DNA of 8,896 nt from contig JAUIEM010000409.1 in assembly GCA_030428695.1 (NCBI GenBank), positions 1 through 8,896 of the forward strand. Direction: 5' to 3'. The position numbers and the translations under genes are program-made. This DNA comes from a bacterium (GTDB lineage Bacteria; Planctomycetota; J058; JAJDCP01). How positions within the stretch are numbered: position 1 is the first letter of the stretch; the number at the start of each line of letters is the position of its first letter. The notes beneath the pieces are model-generated. The model did not search any database. It was not told the DNA's origin and saw only the letters and a list, made by a program, of their open reading frames with translations. This document shows, piece by piece, positions 1-8,770 of the stretch.

Positions 1-527
<527 letters not shown>

Positions 528-565: not shown

Positions 566-1429
566 TCAGTCGAGCGCGTTGGCTCCACTGACAATCTCGA
601 TAAGTTCCGTAGTAATCGCTTCCTGACGCGCCCGGTTCCGCGCCAGGGTCAGCTTGTCGATCAGATCGGACGCGTTGCGGGTCGCGTTGTCCATGGCGGA
701 CATCCGCGCGCCGTGCTCGCTGGCCGCGGCCTCGAGCAGCATGCGAAAGCCCTGCTCGTGCAGGTTCTGGCGCAGCACCTCGTGCAGGAGCACCGCCTGG
801 TCGGGCTCGTAGGTGTAGTCGGCGAGGTACTTGCCCTCCTCGACCTCCTCGCGCTTGATCGGCAGGAAGGGCACGAAGCGCACCCGCTGGCTGACGACCG
901 ACACGAACTCGCTGTAGATCGCGTACACCCCGTCGCACTCGCCCTTCTCGAAGGCGCTGGTCAGGGGATCGAGCACGTGCGCGACGTCGCTGACCGTGAT
1001 CGACTGCACGAAGGCCGGGAAGGACTTGCGCACGGTCCAGGGGCGGCGTTTGAAGAACTGATCGGCGCGCTTACCGACCGTCGTGATCTCGACCTTCTTG
1101 TCCTTGAGCTCGCCCTTGAGCCGGGCGACCGCCTCTTTGAGCACGTTCGAGTTCAACGACCCGCACAGGCCCTTGTCGGACGTGACCACGACCAGGTGCA
1201 CCACCTTGTCCGAGGTCTTCGTGCGCAGCAGCGGATCGCGGGAGTGCCGGGCGCGGGTCGCGACCGACATCATCACCTCGTGCAGCTTCACGAAGTAGGG
1301 GCGGTTCTGCACGATCGCGATCTGTGCCTTACGCAGCTTCGCCGCCGCGACGAGCTTCATCGCCCGCGTGATCTTCTGCGTGTTCTTGACGCTGACGATG
1401 CGCCGTTTGAGTTCTCTCAGGCTGGCCAC
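566..1429 (-). CDS. atpG: F1F0 ATP synthase subunit gamma
   Basis: Central rotor shaft of F1, which couples c-ring rotation to conformational change in the alpha3beta3 head. The product is 287 residues, normal for bacterial gamma. The N-terminal helix ([20 protein letters not shown], then [16 protein letters not shown]) and the C-terminal helix ([18 protein letters not shown], then [19 protein letters not shown]) are the two long antiparallel coiled-coil helices of the family. [10 protein letters not shown] near residue 85 is the conserved start of the globular Rossmann-like part. The start is GTG at 1429, chosen because AAGGAG sits 7 bases upstream and because [11 protein letters not shown] matches family N-termini. 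It lies 48 bases after alpha and 38 before beta, the usual place in F-type operons. Confidence 0.97.
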
Positions 1430-1477: not shown

Positions 1478-2986
<1,509 letters not shown>

Positions 2987-3009: not shown

Positions 3010-3549
3010 TCAGGAAGCGAGCATTGAGTTCTTGAGTTCTTTGAGCTGGGTGCGCAGGCTGCGGTCGACGACGAGGTTACCGATCTGGACGGAGATCCCG
3101 CCGAGCAGCTCCGGGTCGACCTCCACCTCCACGCGCACGGACTTCTTGCTGACCTCAGCGATCTTATTTTCGAGCGCCTCGACCTGGGAAGCGGTCAGCG
3201 GAAAGGCGCTCCTGACATGGGCGACCACGCGTTTGAAGTGCGCGTCGACCAGGTCGGAGAAGGCGTTGGCAATCCCCCTCAGGTAGGGTGTTTTGCGGTT
3301 GTGCACGACCAGGTCGAGCAGTCGCAGGAGCACCGGTTCGAGCTCCGCCTTCTCGCCCAGGGCGCGCAGCGCCTGGAACTGTATGTCGAGGTCGAGTGTC
3401 TGGTTGGTCAGCACCCTCTGGACGTCTGGGTTGGTCTCGAGAACCTCGGCGAACTCCTTGAACTGCGTCGCCTTGCGGTCGAGCCTCTCGAGCCGCGACG
3501 CCGCCATCAGCGCCGCTGCATACCGTCTGTAGACCAGCTGTCCTTTCAC
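3010..3549 (-). CDS. atpH: F1F0 ATP synthase subunit delta (OSCP-like)
   Basis: Stalk subunit joining the b subunits to the top of the F1 head. The product is 179 residues, typical of bacterial delta. The N-terminal helical domain begins [14 protein letters not shown]. The C-terminal signature is clear: [20 protein letters not shown] followed by [15 protein letters not shown]. The start is GTG at 3549, which overlaps the stop of the preceding b-type gene by four bases (GTGA). It has a strong AGGAGG at 3557-3562, 7 bases upstream, so the two genes are probably translationally coupled. The presence of delta in normal order argues against the N-ATPase type of sodium ATPase operon, which lacks this gene. 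Confidence 0.96.
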
Positions 3550-4487
3550 GACGCCGCCTCCTTCTCCAGGGCCGCGAAGTGAGGCCCGAACGCGTCGAAC
3601 TCGGCGATGAACGCCTCGACCAGCGCCTCCTGGTCCTTCTTCTTGACGTTGCCTTCGAGCAGCCCGTGGGCCTCTTCGCTGGCGCGACCGACGACGAGGG
3701 CCTGGAAGTTCTGCTTGGCGCGCAACAGCTCGAGGTCGGCGTATTCCTTCTCGGTCTCGTCGATGCGGGCCTTGGCCTCCGCGGTCTCTTTGGCGATCCG
3801 CTCGGACTCGGCCGTGGCCGTCTCGTTCGCATCGCTGAGGATGCGGCTCTTCTCGGTGTCGAAGTCCTCGAGCTTCTTGCGGATGTCACGGAAGACGGCC
3901 TGGGCCTCCTCCCGCTCCTTCTGCGAGGCGTCGAGGTCGTGCTTGATCCGCTCGGCGCGGGAGTCGAGGAAGCGGAGCAACGGACCCCAGCCGAAGTACC
4001 AGATCAGGAACACGGCGACGAGCACGTTCATCCAGGTCAGGATGCTCGAGTACCTCATCTCCATGATCCGTCGTTGCGCCCAGCCCGACACCGCCGCCAG
4101 CGCCTGCCCGCGAGCGTTGTCCTCGGCCAGCGCGCTGCGCTCGGCGTCGCACAGCTCGCTCAGGTCGTCGAGCTCTTCCTTGCTCAGCTCGACCAGCCAG
4201 GTCTCGTACTCGCGCTCGAAGCTGCGCTCGTAGTGCAACGGGTCGTCGATCGCCCGCTGGCGCAGGGCGAGCAGAAAGGGCGGCTTCTCGAGGCCCTTCG
4301 GCGGAAGGAACTTGTCCTCGAGCAGCGTCTTGCTGAGCACCGCCTTGAACTCGGGGGTGGTGTCGACCACTTCGGGGTAGCCTCTTCCCCACATGAGGAA
4401 GAAGATCGACCACGCGATGAGGTAGACGACGACCATCGAGAGCAGGACGGCTTTGATCGGGCGTTTCGGGGCTTTCTCGTGTGGCAC
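3546..4487 (-). CDS. atpF: Enlarged b-type ATP synthase subunit with an extra membrane helix and a predicted periplasmic domain
   Basis: Second peripheral-stalk (b or b-prime) subunit. At 313 residues it is nearly twice the usual b length of about 155-170. The predicted second half is ordinary b: a membrane helix at about 149-168 (ILTWMNVLVAVFLIWYFGWG), then PLLRFLDSRAERIKHDLD and a long, highly charged heptad-like coiled coil to about residue 262. The first half is unusual. A basic N-terminus (KAPKRPIK) leads into a membrane helix at about 12-33, then about 115 hydrophilic residues (35-147) rich in acidic and aromatic residues. These would lie in the periplasm if both helices span the membrane. 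The start is GTG at 4487, with AAGGGA upstream overlapping the stop of the first b gene; no alternative ATG precedes the first helix. Assignment as a b-type subunit is firm from the second half and position; the role of the extension is unknown. Confidence 0.85.
   Translation of the reverse strand: MPHEKAPKRPIKAVLLSMVVVYLIAWSIFFLMWGRGYPEVVDTTPEFKAVLSKTLLEDKFLPPKGLEKPPFLLALRQRAIDDPLHYERSFEREYETWLVELSKEELDDLSELCDAERSALAEDNARGQALAAVSGWAQRRIMEMRYSSILTWMNVLVAVFLIWYFGWGPLLRFLDSRAERIKHDLDASQKEREEAQAVFRDIRKKLEDFDTEKSRILSDANETATAESERIAKETAEAKARIDETEKEYADLELLRAKQNFQALVVGRASEEAHGLLEGNVKKKDQEALVEAFIAEFDAFGPHFAALEKEAAS
3557..3562 (-). promoter_or_regulatory. Ribosome binding site deciding the GTG start of delta
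   Basis: AGGAGG on the minus strand, 7 bases before the GTG at 3549. It lies inside the end of the upstream b-type gene and supports a GTG start in a four-base GTGA overlap, with no ATG nearby. Confidence 0.85.
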
Positions 4488-4497
4488 GGGTCTTCCC

Positions 4498-5094
4498 TTA
4501 GAGTTCGCGGCCGAGCAGCTTGCTCGCCATGGCTTTGCCGAGCTCCGGCACCTGCTTCTCGACCTCGTCCTGCTGGCCCGCGAGCTGTTGCGCGAGGTCG
4601 TCGCGCACGGCCTGCACCGAGTCCTTGAGCGCGCTCTGACGCTCGATCAGCTCGGTCTGGGCCTGGTCGTGGGCTTCGTGGACGCGGTCGGAGATGACCT
4701 TCGCGGCCTGCAGACGCACTTCGGCGAGCTTCTGGTCGTACTCCTTCTGCATCGCCCTGGCCTTGGCTGTGAAGTCCTTGGCCTCGCGATGGTTCCGATG
4801 TACGAGCTCAGAGCGTTCGTCCAACACCTTCACCGTCGGCTTGAACACCAGACGGCCCATGATGAGGAGGAAGATGCAGAAGATGAGCATCTGCACGATC
4901 AGGGTGCCGTTCGGGTTGAGCATCCCCCGCACGGCTTTGTAGTTTCCGCCCCCGTCGGCCCCGCCGTACGGGTACTGATCCTGCATCATGACCTTGATCG
5001 AGTCCGGCACCTGCGCGTTGTCCGCGGACTGCGCGTGTGCCGGTCCCCAGGCGAGGACGAGGAAGAAAGCGGCCAGACAGATGAAGCGACGCAT
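4498..5094 (-). CDS. atpF: F1F0 ATP synthase subunit b with a predicted cleavable signal peptide
   Basis: Peripheral-stalk subunit that holds F1 against rotation by linking subunit a to delta. The product is 198 residues. Residues 1-21 look like a signal peptide: basic MRR, a hydrophobic core (FICLAAFFLVLAW), then a signal peptidase I-type AHA/Q site. About 40 mature residues follow that would lie outside (with YPYGGADGGG). The membrane helix is at about 63-82 (GTLIVQMLIFCIFLLIMG), followed by the b-typical VFKPTVKVLDERSELV and a charged coiled coil to the C-terminus (KLLGREL). The ATG at 5094 has only a weak purine-rich upstream signal. It lies 36 bases after the single-hairpin c gene and 10 before the second b-type gene. 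An uncleaved N-terminal helix is the alternative to a signal peptide. Confidence 0.92.
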   Translation of the reverse strand: MRRFICLAAFFLVLAWGPAHAQSADNAQVPDSIKVMMQDQYPYGGADGGGNYKAVRGMLNPNGTLIVQMLIFCIFLLIMGRLVFKPTVKVLDERSELVHRNHREAKDFTAKARAMQKEYDQKLAEVRLQAAKVISDRVHEAHDQAQTELIERQSALKDSVQAVRDDLAQQLAGQQDEVEKQVPELGKAMASKLLGREL

Positions 5095-5130: not shown

Positions 5131-5415
5131 TTAGTTGACCAGAACGAACAGCATGAGCAGGGCGATGACCAGCGAGTAGATGCCGGTCGACTCCGACACC
5201 GCCTGACCGATCAGCATGGTCCGGGTCAGCAGCGGGGCGTTCTCGGGGGTACGGGCGATACCTTCGCAGGCGCGGCCGGCGGCGTAGCCTTCACCGATGC
5301 CCGGACCGATCGCTCCGAAGCCCATGCAGATCCCGGCGCCGATGAACAGCGCAGCGTTCTCGAGCTCCGATCCGTTGAAGGTGATTTCCGACAGGAAGGT
5401 GAGAAGGTCCAACAT
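5131..5415 (-). CDS. atpE: F1F0 ATP synthase subunit c, single hairpin, with sodium-type two-carboxylate site
   Basis: Ion-carrying rotor-ring subunit. The product is 94 residues forming one hairpin: an amphipathic N-terminus, helix 1 at about 20-50 (glycine-rich [20 protein letters not shown]), a polar loop with ARTPE, and helix 2 at about 65-92. The essential carboxylate is Glu75 in [18 protein letters not shown]. Helix 1 has Glu42 in [11 protein letters not shown] where the sodium-binding c of Ilyobacter has Gln32. Glu42 plus Glu75-Ser76-Thr77 and Tyr80 matches the two-carboxylate sodium pattern described for Fusobacterium nucleatum. The ATG at 5415 is chosen over an in-frame TTG three codons earlier, because AGGAG abuts that TTG but is 9 bases from the ATG. 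The gene starts 25 bases after the fused c gene. Actual ion specificity is inferred, not shown. Confidence 0.95.
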
Positions 5416-5424
5416 GGCTTCCAA

Positions 5425-5440: not shown

Positions 5441-6172
5441 TCAGACGACGAACACCAGGATGATGCTGATGACGAGCGCGAAGACCGACGGCGATTCGGC
5501 GATAGCCTGGCCGAGGATCATCGTGCGGGTGATCGGTCCCGCAGCGAGCGGGAAACGCCCCGCTCCCTTCGTGGCCTGGGACGCGGCGAAGCCTTCGCCG
5601 ATACCCGAGCCGATGGTTCCAAAGCCGACACACGCGCCGGCGGCGATGAATTTGGCGAGCCCCTCGAAGGAGCTGGCGGGGGTCAGGTTGACCAGCAGCA
5701 GGACGAGCGAGATCACGAAGGCGAACACGCAGGGCGACTCGGTGATCGCCATGCCGAGGATCATCGTGCGCTCGGTCAGGCCCTTGGTGCGTGGGTTCCG
5801 GCTGACGTTGGTACAGGCCTGGGCGGTGACCAGGCCGAGCCCGATGCCGGCGCCGATCGCCGCGAAGCCGATCGCCATGCCGGAGCCGAGCTTCGCCCCG
5901 ATGGTGTGGAACTCGTAGTTGATCGGCGTGGTGAAGCCGAGCAGCAGGGCGACCACGAGGGCGAAGATACCCGGGGTCTCGGACAGCGCCTGGCCGAGCA
6001 GCATCGTGCGGAAGGTGATGTCCGCGTGCTTGGGCTGGCGCTGCATCGAGAACACCGCCGCCCCGCCGGCCATCCCGACCCCGATCGCGGGGCCGATGGC
6101 GCCGAAGCCCATCGCGATGCCGGCTGCCAGGAAGCTGGCGAGCTGCACCCAGTTTTCCATCTCAAGTTCCAC
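5441..6172 (-). CDS. atpE: F1F0 ATP synthase subunit c, three hairpins fused in one polypeptide
   Basis: Rotor-ring subunit of 243 residues, about three times the normal c length. It reads as three tandem c units of about 80 residues, so six membrane helices are predicted. Unit 1 is about 1-80, unit 2 about 81-162, unit 3 about 163-243. Each has a glycine-rich first helix ([39 protein letters not shown]), an Arg-x-Pro loop (RQP 45-47, RNP 125-127, RFP 206-208) and a second helix with the essential glutamate: Glu65 (ALSETPGIF), Glu145 (AITESPCVF), Glu226 (AIAESPSVF). The position equivalent to Ilyobacter Gln32 is Val32, Leu112 and Glu193, so the sites differ. The repeats are well diverged, which suggests an old fusion rather than a recent duplication. 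The start is GTG at 6172, with AGGAG 7 bases upstream. The reading frame is uninterrupted, with no sign of a frameshift joining genes. Confidence 0.93.
   Translation of the reverse strand: MELEMENWVQLASFLAAGIAMGFGAIGPAIGVGMAGGAAVFSMQRQPKHADITFRTMLLGQALSETPGIFALVVALLLGFTTPINYEFHTIGAKLGSGMAIGFAAIGAGIGLGLVTAQACTNVSRNPRTKGLTERTMILGMAITESPCVFAFVISLVLLLVNLTPASSFEGLAKFIAAGACVGFGTIGSGIGEGFAASQATKGAGRFPLAAGPITRTMILGQAIAESPSVFALVISIILVFVV
5441..6172 (-). repeat. Three tandem diverged c-hairpin units within one gene
   Basis: Protein-level internal repeat. Unit boundaries fall near bases 5930 and 5686. All units share G-x-G-x-G first helices and a TM(I/L)LG-x-A-x-x-E second helix. Unit 3 is visibly closest to the separate single-hairpin c gene, with about half of aligned positions identical by eye. 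This suggests that gene and unit 3 descend from one copy. Confidence 0.88.
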
Positions 6173-6179
6173 GACTGCT

Positions 6180-6184
6180 CTCCT
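6180..6184 (-). promoter_or_regulatory. Ribosome binding site deciding the GTG start of the fused c gene
   Basis: AGGAG overlaps the TAG stop of subunit a and lies 7 bases before the GTG at 6172. An in-frame ATG at 6160 would be 19 bases away, too far, so GTG is preferred. The overlap with the upstream stop suggests coupled translation. Confidence 0.8.
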
Positions 6185-6965
6185 ACTCGTTCACTTCGAC
6201 GCTGATATAGGTCAGCGTCAGCATGGTGAACACGAAGGCCTGCACGGTCCCGACAAAGAACACGAAGAAGAAGTTCAGACCGACCGGCAGGAACACGTAG
6301 TTCACCAGCCAGGACACCACGACCACGATGATCACGCCGCCCTTGATGTTCCCGAACAGTCGAAAGCTGATCGAGAGCACCTCGGCGATCTTTCCGATCG
6401 CGTTGAGCGGGAAGAAGATCGGGTTCGGTGCGAACAAGCCCTTGACGAAGCTCCCGACCCCTTTGAAGAAGCCGCCGACGCCCTTGCCGCCGTGCACGCG
6501 GAAGTGGCTGACCAGCGAGATCATGAAGCCGAGGATGCCGAGCGCGAACGGCGTGTTCACGTCGGCGGTCGGCTCGTGCAGGAAGGGGATGAAGCCGAGG
6601 ATGTTGCTCAGGACCAGGAAGATGAACAGGGTGCCGATCAGCGGCAGGTACTTGCGGTTGTCTTCCTGCTTCTCGAAGCCGAGCGAATCGGCGACGAGGC
6701 TGTCAAAACCCCCGACGATCAGCTCGCAGAAGGATTGGAAGCGTCCGGGCACCATCGAGCGGCTGCGCCACAGGATGATCGCGCCGAAGAGCAGGATCCC
6801 GACGACGACGAAGGTGTCCGTCAGCGTGTGGGGATTCACCTCGAACAGCGGGCTGCGGAGGATCGGGTACTCGGCGTACCACTGCGCCCACAGCTCATCC
6901 TGCCCGATCAGATGGAGGAACCACCCGATCAGATTCATCACTTCTTGTCTGGCGATATGTTCCAC
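6183..6965 (-). CDS. atpB: F1F0 ATP synthase subunit a
   Basis: Stator membrane subunit that forms the two ion half-channels against the c ring. The product is 260 residues with five or six predicted membrane helices. Family marks are present: LSNILGFIPFLHEPTADVNT near 119-138, the stator arginine Arg202 in SISFRLFGN, and Gln242 in VQAFVFTMLTLTYISVEV. Two usual polar partners are absent. Relative to E. coli a, the residue matching Glu219 is Val211 and the one matching His245 is Val235. Lys208 lies six residues after the arginine (RLFGNIKGG), an unexpected charge in this helix. The start is GTG at 6965, with AAGGG 7 bases upstream; an ATG at 6938 is possible but has a weaker site. It follows the AtpI-like stop by 3 bases and precedes the fused c gene by 10. 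Confidence 0.95.
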   Translation of the reverse strand: MEHIARQEVMNLIGWFLHLIGQDELWAQWYAEYPILRSPLFEVNPHTLTDTFVVVGILLFGAIILWRSRSMVPGRFQSFCELIVGGFDSLVADSLGFEKQEDNRKYLPLIGTLFIFLVLSNILGFIPFLHEPTADVNTPFALGILGFMISLVSHFRVHGGKGVGGFFKGVGSFVKGLFAPNPIFFPLNAIGKIAEVLSISFRLFGNIKGGVIIVVVVSWLVNYVFLPVGLNFFFVFFVGTVQAFVFTMLTLTYISVEVNE

Positions 6966-6968
6966 TAC

Positions 6969-7346
6969 TCAGCCCTTTGCCAAACCCAGTCCGGCGACGA
7001 CGAGCACGACCTGGCAGGCGAACAGCCCGGCCGCGCACGCAGCGAAGGAAATGATCTCGGGAAACATCAACGCGGCGATCAGCGCGACACCCATCAGCGG
7101 GAGGCGCAGGCCAAAGCTCGCGAAGGACATCCGCGCCGCGGCCTGCGGGTCGACCTGGTCGCGCATCTTGCGTGCATTGCGGGCGAGCAGCCGGAAGTTG
7201 ATCAAGCTGAAGAGCCCACCGAGGAGCAGCCCGAACGCGACCGCGCTGTGCCCGAGGGCGAGGGCCGCCCCCGCGGAACCGAGCACAAGGACCGTCGTCA
7301 GACGGTCAACCTTGCGCACCAGCGTGTCGATCGTCGACTGCGCCAT
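6969..7346 (-). CDS. atpI: AtpI-like ATP synthase accessory membrane protein
   Basis: A small membrane protein of 125 residues in the usual AtpI/UncI position just before subunit a. AtpI proteins help assemble the c ring and, with AtpZ, have been linked to magnesium/calcium transport. Four hydrophobic segments are visible, at about 15-32, 34-54, 76-95 and 98-121. A basic loop after the second (NFRLLARNARKMRD) is typical of the family. The ATG at 7346 is preferred to a longer frame beginning at 7412, because AAGGGGG sits 9 bases upstream and the extra N-terminal residues look unlike coding sequence. It overlaps the end of the AtpZ-like gene by 41 bases and stops 3 bases before subunit a. The assignment rests on position, size and hydrophobic profile more than on a diagnostic motif. 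Confidence 0.8.
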   Translation of the reverse strand: MAQSTIDTLVRKVDRLTTVLVLGSAGAALALGHSAVAFGLLLGGLFSLINFRLLARNARKMRDQVDPQAAARMSFASFGLRLPLMGVALIAALMFPEIISFAACAAGLFACQVVLVVAGLGLAKG

Positions 7347-7671
7347 CGCGATGTGCCCCCTTGTTCTCGCGAAACAGCAACTTCCCGGCCGCGTAGAAAC
7401 CCGCGGCGACACCGACCAGCACGCCTGCCGCCGTCAGCGGCCCCGACCAGCCGAGCAGGCGGTCGAGCAAGAACCCTCCGGCCAGCCCCGCACCGACGCA
7501 GATCGCGACGACCAGACCGAGCTGGGCGACGAGGCCCAACGCCTGGTACATGTGCGCTTCAGACTTCTGGCTCCCGTCGAAGAGGCGCTCGCGCACGTCT
7601 TTGTCGGGACGACCTTCCCCCTCGCGCTCTTGAGCACCTGGCTGGTCGCTCGGCCGGGGGTTGTCCACCAT
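7306..7671 (-). CDS. atpZ: AtpZ-like F0F1-ATPase accessory subunit
   Basis: First gene of the operon, 121 residues. The N-terminal 40 residues are hydrophilic and low-complexity (Pro, Gly, Glu, Arg). Two membrane helices follow, at about 43-66 (ALGLVAQLGLVVAICVGAG) and 77-100, with LAGGFLLDRLLGWSGPLTAAGVL between and around them. That G-x-x-LD-x-x-x-G-x-x-P pattern and two-helix layout fit the AtpZ (ATPase gene 1) family. The ATG at 7671 is chosen because GAGGG lies a few bases upstream; a longer frame reaching 7869 would run through the promoter and leader and its extra residues look non-coding. The last 41 bases overlap the AtpI-like gene. AtpZ and AtpI occur together in many bacterial F-type operons and may act as a complex. 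Confidence 0.8.
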   Translation of the reverse strand: MVDNPRPSDQPGAQEREGEGRPDKDVRERLFDGSQKSEAHMYQALGLVAQLGLVVAICVGAGLAGGFLLDRLLGWSGPLTAAGVLVGVAAGFYAAGKLLFRENKGAHRDGAVDDRHAGAQG

Positions 7672-7715
7672 CTGTCTGCCCTCACGGGGCTTTTGACCTG
7701 GGCTCTCGAGGACTT

Positions 7716-7731
7716 TGTGATTTTTTTCACA
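7716..7731. promoter_or_regulatory. Perfect TGTGA-N6-TCACA palindrome of CRP/FNR type in the atp leader
   Basis: The core reads TGTGA, six T, TCACA on the plus strand. Symmetry extends outward with GACT at 7711-7714 matched by AGTC at 7733-7736, giving a 26-base imperfect palindrome (one mismatched pair at 7715/7732). The core is the E. coli CRP half-site pattern with its normal 6-base spacer. Its centre is about 25 bases downstream of the predicted transcription start, a place where a bound factor would usually repress. In RNA it would also fold as a stem with a six-A loop, so a leader hairpin is the alternative reading. Confidence 0.6.
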
Positions 7732-7755
7732 GAGTCGGTGTCCCAAAGCGCGGAC

Positions 7756-7784
7756 GTTGTAACCGAGGGGATCTGCGCTGTCAA
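7756..7784 (-). promoter_or_regulatory. Sigma-70-like promoter for the atp operon
   Basis: On the minus strand, TTGACA at 7784-7779 is a perfect -35 box. It is followed by a 17-base spacer and TACAAC at 7761-7756, which matches four of six -10 positions including the key A and T. The transcription start would be near 7749, giving a leader of about 78 bases before the AtpZ-like ATG. It stands out from its GC-rich surroundings and is placed correctly for the operon. Confidence 0.65.
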
Positions 7785-7965
7785 AGAAAAAGCCGGAGAA
7801 AAGGCGGGTCGGCGCGCGCGTGACTTTTCTCTGCAAGGGCCCGGCAGGCGGATTGCGAGCGATTCCCAACGATTTTGGTCAGGGAGGGAGGCGCTCGAGG
7901 CGGGCCGGTGCAGCGGACGGGCGCCTTCGCCTGGGCGTTACGAGCAGGAAACGTCCGCGGTCATC

Positions 7966-8256
7966 CTACTCGAAGACACCTTCGACGACGTACTTCGCGA
8001 ACTTGTCCTCGCTCTCCTTGAAGACGCGCATCTTGATCCCGGAGAACTCGTCACCGTTGCGCTGACGCAGAACCTCTATGCCTTCGGTCAGGGAGACCGG
8101 CGAGATGAAGAGCGTCTTCTCTTCGCCCGCGTCGGTGCGGACATCGACCACCGGCGCATAGCCCCGGCGGGTCTTGACGACATAGGGCTCGGTCAGGATC
8201 TCGAGGACCACTGGATCCTCGGTCACCTTGAGCGACTTCTGTTTCGCGTCGGCCAC
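7966..8256 (-). CDS. Hypothetical protein, 96 residues
   Basis: I do not recognise this protein. It is soluble and mixed-charge, with no signal peptide or membrane helix. It has alternating hydrophobic patterns suggesting several beta strands (VVLEILTEPYVVKT, GYAPVVDVRTDAG, EKTLFISPVSL) and then a short helix-like segment (LTEGIEVLRQRNG) and a strand-rich end (GIKMRVFKE and KYVVEGVFE). A small beta-barrel is plausible but is only inference. Coding status is well supported: GTG start at 8256 with GGAAGGAG 6 bases upstream, strong GC third-position bias, and clean stop. It lies 79 bases after the larger unknown gene on the same strand, so they may be co-transcribed. There is no evidence that it takes part in ATP synthase function. 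Confidence 0.75.
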   Translation of the reverse strand: MADAKQKSLKVTEDPVVLEILTEPYVVKTRRGYAPVVDVRTDAGEEKTLFISPVSLTEGIEVLRQRNGDEFSGIKMRVFKESEDKFAKYVVEGVFE

Positions 8257-8335: not shown

Positions 8336-8770
8336 TCAGGTCTTCGTCTCGTCGTCCGCCGCCTCGTCCTTGGCGTCGGACTCCTTGGAGCGGTTGAGGG
8401 CTTCGAGGACCTGGTCCTTCTCGTACAGGTACCGCTGCTTGTACTTCTTGATGTAGTTGTTGATCGTCAGCAACGGCTTCTCATCGACGTAGCCCTGCTG
8501 CTTGAACCGCTTGGCCCAGTTCGCGCATTTGCGGATGTGCAGCTCGGAGAACAGGTCCTGGTGGTCGCGGTTGATCAGGTAGAGGGCGTTGAGCACGTGG
8601 TCGAGGTCGGTGTGCGGGATGCCCTTGCGGCTGCGCGAGCGACTTCTCGAGCTCTTGCCCTTCGTCTTCTTCTGCTGCGCGGTCTCGACCCCGTGCGCTG
8701 CAGCTGGCCGGAGCTCGTGAGAGCAGGAGCTAGCACGTGGGGGGTAATGCCGGCGGATCAGTACCGACAT
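8336..8770 (-). CDS. Hypothetical basic/acidic protein, up to 144 residues, with Ser-Arg repeats
   Basis: I do not recognise this protein. A lysine-rich stretch and Ser-Arg repeat lie at about 34-49 (KKTKGKSSRSRSRSRKG). Next comes a compact region at 51-130 that looks mostly helical and folded, with conserved-looking Trp, Tyr and Cys residues (HVLNALYLINRDHQDLF, IRKCANWAKRFKQQGYV, NNYIKKYKQRYLYEKDQ). The tail from 130 is acidic. The codons in 51-130 show strong GC third-position bias, so it is very likely coding. The start is uncertain: ATG at 8770 is the only standard start seen in frame, but it has no good ribosome binding site, its first 27 residues look non-coding, and it overlaps the divergent cyclase start by 24 bases. 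A nucleic-acid-binding role could be guessed from the basic tail but is not supported further. Confidence 0.65.
   Translation of the reverse strand: MSVLIRRHYPPRASSCSHELRPAAAHGVETAQQKKTKGKSSRSRSRSRKGIPHTDLDHVLNALYLINRDHQDLFSELHIRKCANWAKRFKQQGYVDEKPLLTINNYIKKYKQRYLYEKDQVLEALNRSKESDAKDEAADDETKT

Follow-up and report, generated by a model that had tools for sequence, protein, structure and literature searches.

A stretch of bacterial DNA of 8,896 nucleotides (hereafter the window) carries an F-type ATP synthase operon in which one gene encodes a c subunit made of three fused hairpins and the next gene encodes a normal, single-hairpin c subunit. We observed the same pairing of fused and single c genes throughout a family of bacterial proteins, and read the residues at the ion sites of both partners. 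By analogy with known enzymes, we consider it likely that the triple-hairpin protein sits in the rotor of an F1Fo ATP synthase that is probably coupled to Na+, where it would share a mixed c ring with many single-hairpin c subunits.

The triple-hairpin gene and its operon

The frame of the triple c subunit (6172..5441, minus strand) is open across 243 codons and starts with GTG, with aggag located seven bases ahead; an alternative start, ATG 6160, is the same as the starts of two close relatives (P0003 and P0004). Pfam matched PF00137 (ATP-synt_C) three times in the protein with E 4.6e-39, which ruled out a chance match, and the score against TIGR01260, summed over three units, was 98.1 bits (cut-off 43.95). 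Each unit has one helix-2 glutamate (65, 145 and 226) and one R-x-P loop motif (45, 125 and 206). In pairwise comparison the units were 44-49% identical, and therefore do not represent an assembly duplication. The AlphaFold2 model, built from 22 aligned triple-hairpin proteins (mean pLDDT 93.6, pTM 0.87), consisted of three two-helix hairpins with short predicted linkers between them, and a simple hydropathy scan with a cut-off of 1.5 picked up five membrane helices where six are expected. The plus-strand translation of 5441..6172 contained no c subunit.

The order of the genes, a, c-triple, c-single, b', b, delta, alpha, gamma, beta, is that of a standard F-type operon, and genes for AtpI-like and ATPase_gene1-family proteins stand ahead of it. 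The features of the window are as follows:

7306..7869, minus strand: ATPase_gene1-family protein, whose listed frame overlaps that of the AtpI-like protein (PF09527, E 1.1e-07)
6969..7412, minus strand: AtpI-like protein (PF03899, E 6.5e-13)
6183..6965, minus strand: a subunit with the SFRLFGN motif and Arg 202 (PF00119, E 4.3e-42)
5441..6172, minus strand: triple-hairpin c subunit, 243 aa (PF00137 three times, E 4.6e-39; site residues; AlphaFold2 model)
5131..5424, minus strand: single-hairpin c subunit (PF00137, E 4.6e-19; site residues; start region; nearest solved chains)
4498..5094, minus strand: b' subunit, 198 aa (PF00430, E 7.1e-18)
3546..4487, minus strand: b subunit, 313 aa, much extended at its N terminus (PF00430, E 1.1e-14, matched from residue 153)
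3010..3549, minus strand: delta subunit, 179 aa (PF00213, E 3.6e-42)
1478..2986, minus strand: alpha subunit, 502 aa (homologue search, listed hits all alpha-type)
566..1429, minus strand: gamma subunit, 287 aa (frame matches in related operons; named from order and sequence)
3..527, minus strand: beta subunit, N-terminal part, leaving the window (start MDAQSRGQ at 527; named from order and sequence)

Arg 202 of the a subunit is presumably the stator arginine. The b subunit of 313 residues has two hydrophobic stretches, which begin at about residues 14 and 148. Among the best 120 of 8000 candidates, the alpha subunit was 90% identical to one protein and at most 72% identical to the other 118 relatives. 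Two further frames are listed upstream of the operon on the minus strand (7966-8256 and 8336-8770), and neither had a Pfam or NCBIfam match.

The single-hairpin frame encodes 97 aa if it is read from TTG 5424; the likely start is ATG 5415, behind taggag, which gives 94 aa. Depending on this choice, the gap between the triple gene and the single gene downstream is 25 or 16 bases. Because a normal c gene directly follows the triple, the ring should not by default be read as built of fused chains alone.

The preliminary description of this DNA thus held good for the open frame of 243 residues with three diverged c units and a glutamate in each, for an F-type operon that is otherwise classical and includes delta, and, in the topology prediction that it had proposed, for three hairpins; it was incomplete in that the single-hairpin c gene right after the triple had been missed.

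Two other classes of rotary ATPase were rejected. Assignment to the A/V-type K subunits was excluded by the F-type a, b and delta subunits recognised with Pfam and by V-type K models that remained far below their cut-offs (in one example, 61.1 vs 211 bits). N-type ATPases, as described in PMC11738941, follow the order beta-epsilon-X-X-a-c-(b-delta)-alpha-gamma, and their delta is either missing or fused to b; the window has a separate delta and the order a-c-c-b'-b-delta-alpha-gamma-beta, and its score for alt_F1F0_F0_C was 122.7 with a cut-off of 130.85.

Ion-site residues and comparison with known enzymes

We write the ion-site residues as position 32, a slash, and then positions 63, 65, 66, 67 and 70. 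The window single c reads E/VESTY, which corresponds to a complete two-carboxylate ligand set of the Na+ type: all six ligands listed for the Na+ ring of Fusobacterium nucleatum (E32, V63, E65, S66, T67 and Y70; PMC3692424) are identical in it. The same paper describes production of the F. nucleatum ring in E. coli DK8 together with Ilyobacter subunits. The units of the triple read V/LETPF (unit 1), L/IESPF (unit 2) and E/IESPF (unit 3). Compared with the F. nucleatum ring, the fused units thus keep the helix-2 carboxylate in three of three cases, whereas T67 and Y70 are absent from every unit (P and F stand at the places of T and Y in the single c) and E32, the helix-1 ligand, is present in unit 3 only, replaced by V in unit 1 and by L in unit 2. 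Since the fused sites miss part of the Na+ ligand set, their affinity for Na+ may be lower, or they may take up H+ instead. The Sporomusa ovata enzyme, for which PMC9430772 reports a Na+ motif and an ATPase not stimulated by Na+, indicates that the motif is no proof of Na+ use.

Among solved structures, the nearest chains to the single c were 4bem_J and 3zk1, the latter of which we take to be the c ring entry of F. nucleatum. The solved relative nearest to the triple by sequence was the c1 subunit of Acetobacterium woodii (4bem_J, E 8.8e-21), and the same chain was ranked first by Foldseek for the triple model (E 6.0e-08), with merely moderate superposition (TM 0.44/0.55, rmsd 9.3). The preliminary description was right to name A. 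woodii as a bacterial precedent. According to PMC7911925, in Clostridium aceticum and A. woodii the gene of a double-hairpin c1 (sites E, then Q) stands before that of a single-hairpin c2, and the C. aceticum ATPase is Na+-dependent; the A. woodii ring is described as having 10 sites, equal to 3.3 Na+ per ATP (PMC7793690, PMC5662883).

Like A. woodii (c1 with c2/c3; PDB 4bem) and C. aceticum (c1/c2), the window combines a fused and a single c in one F-type operon, and the fused gene precedes the single gene as it does in C. aceticum. A single c with the full Na+ motif, a feature of the A. woodii type, is likewise found in the window (E/VESTY). However, A. woodii c1 has two hairpins and has lost one carboxylate (E, then Q), whereas the window triple has three hairpins and has lost none; furthermore, the single c of the window carries Glu rather than Gln in helix 1. 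Because the two hairpins and the one lost carboxylate are not found in the window protein, we did not file it as a member of the A. woodii type; it differs in these two features, yet by analogy it would work like one.

Tandem hairpins in one chain are also known from archaeal K/c subunits, in which Methanocaldococcus jannaschii has a triple and Methanopyrus kandleri 13 hairpins with every site kept (PMC2359735); those, however, belong to A/V-type enzymes, and the window triple belongs to an F-type operon. The ProAD paper (PMC11738941) describes c/K variants of two or more hairpins, each with or without the site; the passages concerned give no count, gene pairing or F-type triple for the multi-hairpin c/K. 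Among the top-ranked titles and abstracts of the literature searches, none dealt with a fused F-type c of at least three hairpins. Hybrid rotors and their distribution are the subject of a review (Brandt & Mueller 2015), and we do not claim the first report of longer F-type fusions.

Fused c subunits in other bacteria

A contig scan returned 302 stretches with an encoded relative, of which the best 80 were taken; 32 further loci, many of them duplicates of earlier ones, and the window were then added, so that the sample was picked by likeness to the window triple. It contained a fused c at 113 loci, and at 107 of these the next gene downstream, on the same strand, was a single c. Merging of identical proteins left 101 distinct fused c subunits of two to six hairpins from several phyla: relatives occurred in families of Desulfobacterota, in Planctomycetota, in a Spirochaetes MAG and a 'Bacillota' MAG, and in Coatesbacteria, UBP8 and Termititenax. 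One had two hairpins, 41 had three, 45 had four, 11 had five and three had six (L006 was counted among the last with an incomplete match of its first unit). A single c came directly after 96 of these 101 proteins, and an a gene came before 97; for the window clade, pairing with a single c was read at the window locus only.

The helix-2 patterns of the 101 fused proteins were mostly EQQE (20), EQQQ (18), EQE (18), EQQ (9) and SQQ (7); less frequent were EQQQQ (6), EQQQE (5), ETQ (3) and ETE (3), and eight further patterns covered 12 proteins in all. EEE occurred in the window alone. At least one helix-2 carboxylate was missing from 99 of the 100 locus proteins with at least three hairpins, the window being the sole exception, and nine of the 100 had none at all (seven SQQ and two SSQQ). 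The carboxylate-free chains are SQQ in L079, L094, L105, L108, L109, L110 and L111 and SSQQ in L090 and L091, and most of them come from the small phylum of L079. We also noticed two places (L113:2668-4658 and L114:3460-5537) with an a gene and a four-hairpin SSQQ c, where other ATPase subunits were not detected within 9 kb.

At the helix-1 site, 93 of the 96 adjacent single c subunits had Glu and two had Gln, and one was unreadable. The single c was the more conserved partner, with a median identity of 74% to that of the window (107 compared), and units 1, 2 and 3 of the fused proteins were below it with medians of 49, 38 and 45%. Five of the 101 proteins lacked an adjacent single c: L007 (identical to L008), L084, L105, L090 and L091. 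L084 and L105 stand close to the end of a contig (34 and 180 bases away), but L007/L008, L090 and L091 are unpaired in place. Each of the six genomes of the unpaired proteins (that of L008 included) had another short c match elsewhere, and the one such place that was read, L116, had a single c with E/E. Genome G554 (L007) has two four-hairpin fused c genes, on C16 with a single c close downstream and on C29 without one.

The search of bacterial genomes for relatives, which the preliminary description had proposed, gave 96 pairs among 101 fused proteins. The view that the architecture is unusual has to be qualified, given 101 distinct fused c proteins of two to six hairpins in several phyla.

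Five more triple-hairpin proteins of the same architecture came from other contigs and were 61-83% identical to the window triple (P0003 83%, P0004 79%, P0006 71%, P0007 71% and P0026 61%); in P0004 the middle site is Gln, not Glu. A protein search with the window triple gave 613 proteins at E <= 0.001 and one with the six-hairpin relative from L063 gave 1868; the best 120 of each were taken, and each search scored just the approximately 8000 candidates with the most words in common. The 216 distinct database proteins listed in this way are best scorers and not a random sample, include some fragments and count a copy of the window protein; six had three hairpins, 94 had four, 85 had five and 31 had six. 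At least one unit was without its helix-2 carboxylate in 210 of the 216, whereas all carboxylates were kept in six (window, P0003, P0006, P0007, P0026 and P0310). P0310, with 520 residues, six hairpins, six Glu and hydrophobic helix-1 residues, is unlike the rest of the family. In a tree of 199 units, the six window-clade copies clustered per unit position (support 0.986, 1.0 and 0.937); unit 1 was nearest to the first units of other fused proteins, and units 2 and 3 were nearest to single c, with long branches.

Genome frequencies were counted with the triple alignment at E <= 1e-40 or 1e-30, starting genomes included. At E <= 1e-40, a threshold that overlooks the known cases G547, G552 and G008, matches were found in 15 of 294 genomes in the phylum of L026 (Phycisphaerae), 24 of 247 in that of L038 (Desulfosarcina), 11 of 74 in that of L035, nine of 12 in that of L079 and one of 149, namely the starting genome, in that of L022 (Spirochaetes). 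At E <= 1e-30, three of four genomes were matched for L067 (four-hairpin) and three of three for L011 (two-hairpin). Across up to 808 genomes, no match exceeded 220.1 bits to the triple alignment.

Additional c matches were present elsewhere in eight of the ten fused-c genomes first examined. Nine of ten such places were read as short stretches (L118-L126), and all nine had an a gene near c; their site residues were Q with Leu for Thr in six, E/MESTY in two and I/FETAY in one. With extra c genes beside an a gene elsewhere, the fused-plus-single operon would usually not be the sole rotary ATPase of those genomes. In Desulfatiglans-related genomes, PMC13343851 reports two to four copies of atpE, with the ion not resolved there.

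A probable mixed ring and its alternatives

We infer that the triple and the single c encoded next to it would be assembled into one hybrid ring, as c1 is with c2/c3 in A. woodii, and each fused chain would occupy three neighbouring places. The ring of the window would then have a carboxylate at every position, all three fused places having kept theirs; purely for illustration, one triple and eight single c subunits would give 11 hairpins and 11 carboxylates. Elsewhere in the family, the conserved single c would supply ion sites where the fused chains have few or none. This reading is favoured because the fused/single pairing and the loss from E to Q recur here with more hairpins, and because site-poor fused chains need sites that the conserved single c can provide; a fused chain whose three to six hairpins share at most one carboxylate is unlikely to form a working ring by itself. 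Co-assembly, the copy number, the ion and work as a synthase all belong to the inferred part of this proposal.

It seems unlikely that the cell would instead switch between two uniform rings, one of triple only (9, 12 or 15 hairpins) and the other of single c only. A uniform triple ring is chemically possible, as the window triple has three carboxylates, a state common to five listed triples in the window clade; however, the two genes are adjacent in one operon, and a uniform ring is implausible for relatives which have the same gene arrangement and one or no carboxylate per chain. It appears rather improbable as well that the fused protein stays out of the moving rotor and helps rings of single c to form, whether as an assembly template or as a membrane protein on the stator side or in regulation. 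The faster evolution of the fused units relative to single c, the chains without any helix-2 carboxylate, and the SSQQ chains of L113 and L114, beside which an a gene was the sole ATPase subunit gene detected, would agree with such a role. On the other hand, the closest relative in both sequence and fold is a ring member, unit 1 has Glu in about 99% of the 216 listed database proteins, and R-x-P loops are present in all three window units.

That the fused chain is processed into three ordinary c subunits once it has been made is very improbable: every unit is a complete hairpin, but the linkers are short, and the carboxylate-free units of most relatives, if released at random, would poison the ring. 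Still less credible is an assembly artefact or a decaying gene, as the units are just 44-49% identical and both the frame and the ribosome-binding site are intact; the five other triples from other contigs largely refute an artefact.

The ion cost of each ATP is fixed by how many sites the c ring carries. The preliminary description had stated that the ratio of ions to ATP would not fall when all three carboxylates are kept. For the window this may hold, since the triple keeps three Glu and the ratio need not fall provided that its incomplete sites, with other Na+ ligands missing, work. In P0004, however, the middle site is Gln, and 99 of the 100 locus proteins with at least three hairpins have lost one carboxylate or more.

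More remarkable than the window itself is the stepwise disappearance of ion sites in the family as a whole. Whether hybrid F-type rotors, with fused c chains of three to six hairpins, are widely used by bacteria to set the ion-to-ATP ratio while the ring size stays constant is, in our judgement, evenly balanced. If they are, a fused chain would replace an arc of the ring, in which sites can go one by one, down to none, and the most extreme rotors must carry the stator past several site-free positions in a row. The window clade would then form the end of the series at which all carboxylates are kept, and P0004 the first loss. Fused and single pairs are present in Desulfosarcina alkanivorans (fused pattern EQQE), Desulfacinum hydrothermale (EQE), D. 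infernum, Dethiosulfatarculus sandiegensis and Desulfoferrobacter suflitae, and the question is thus open to bench work in named strains. Fused chains of two to six hairpins, with all to no carboxylates and nearly always paired with a single c, would be a natural test series, with the window clade as its no-gap end, for whether a rotor can run across gaps and for the lower limit of the ion-to-ATP ratio in energy-limited cells.
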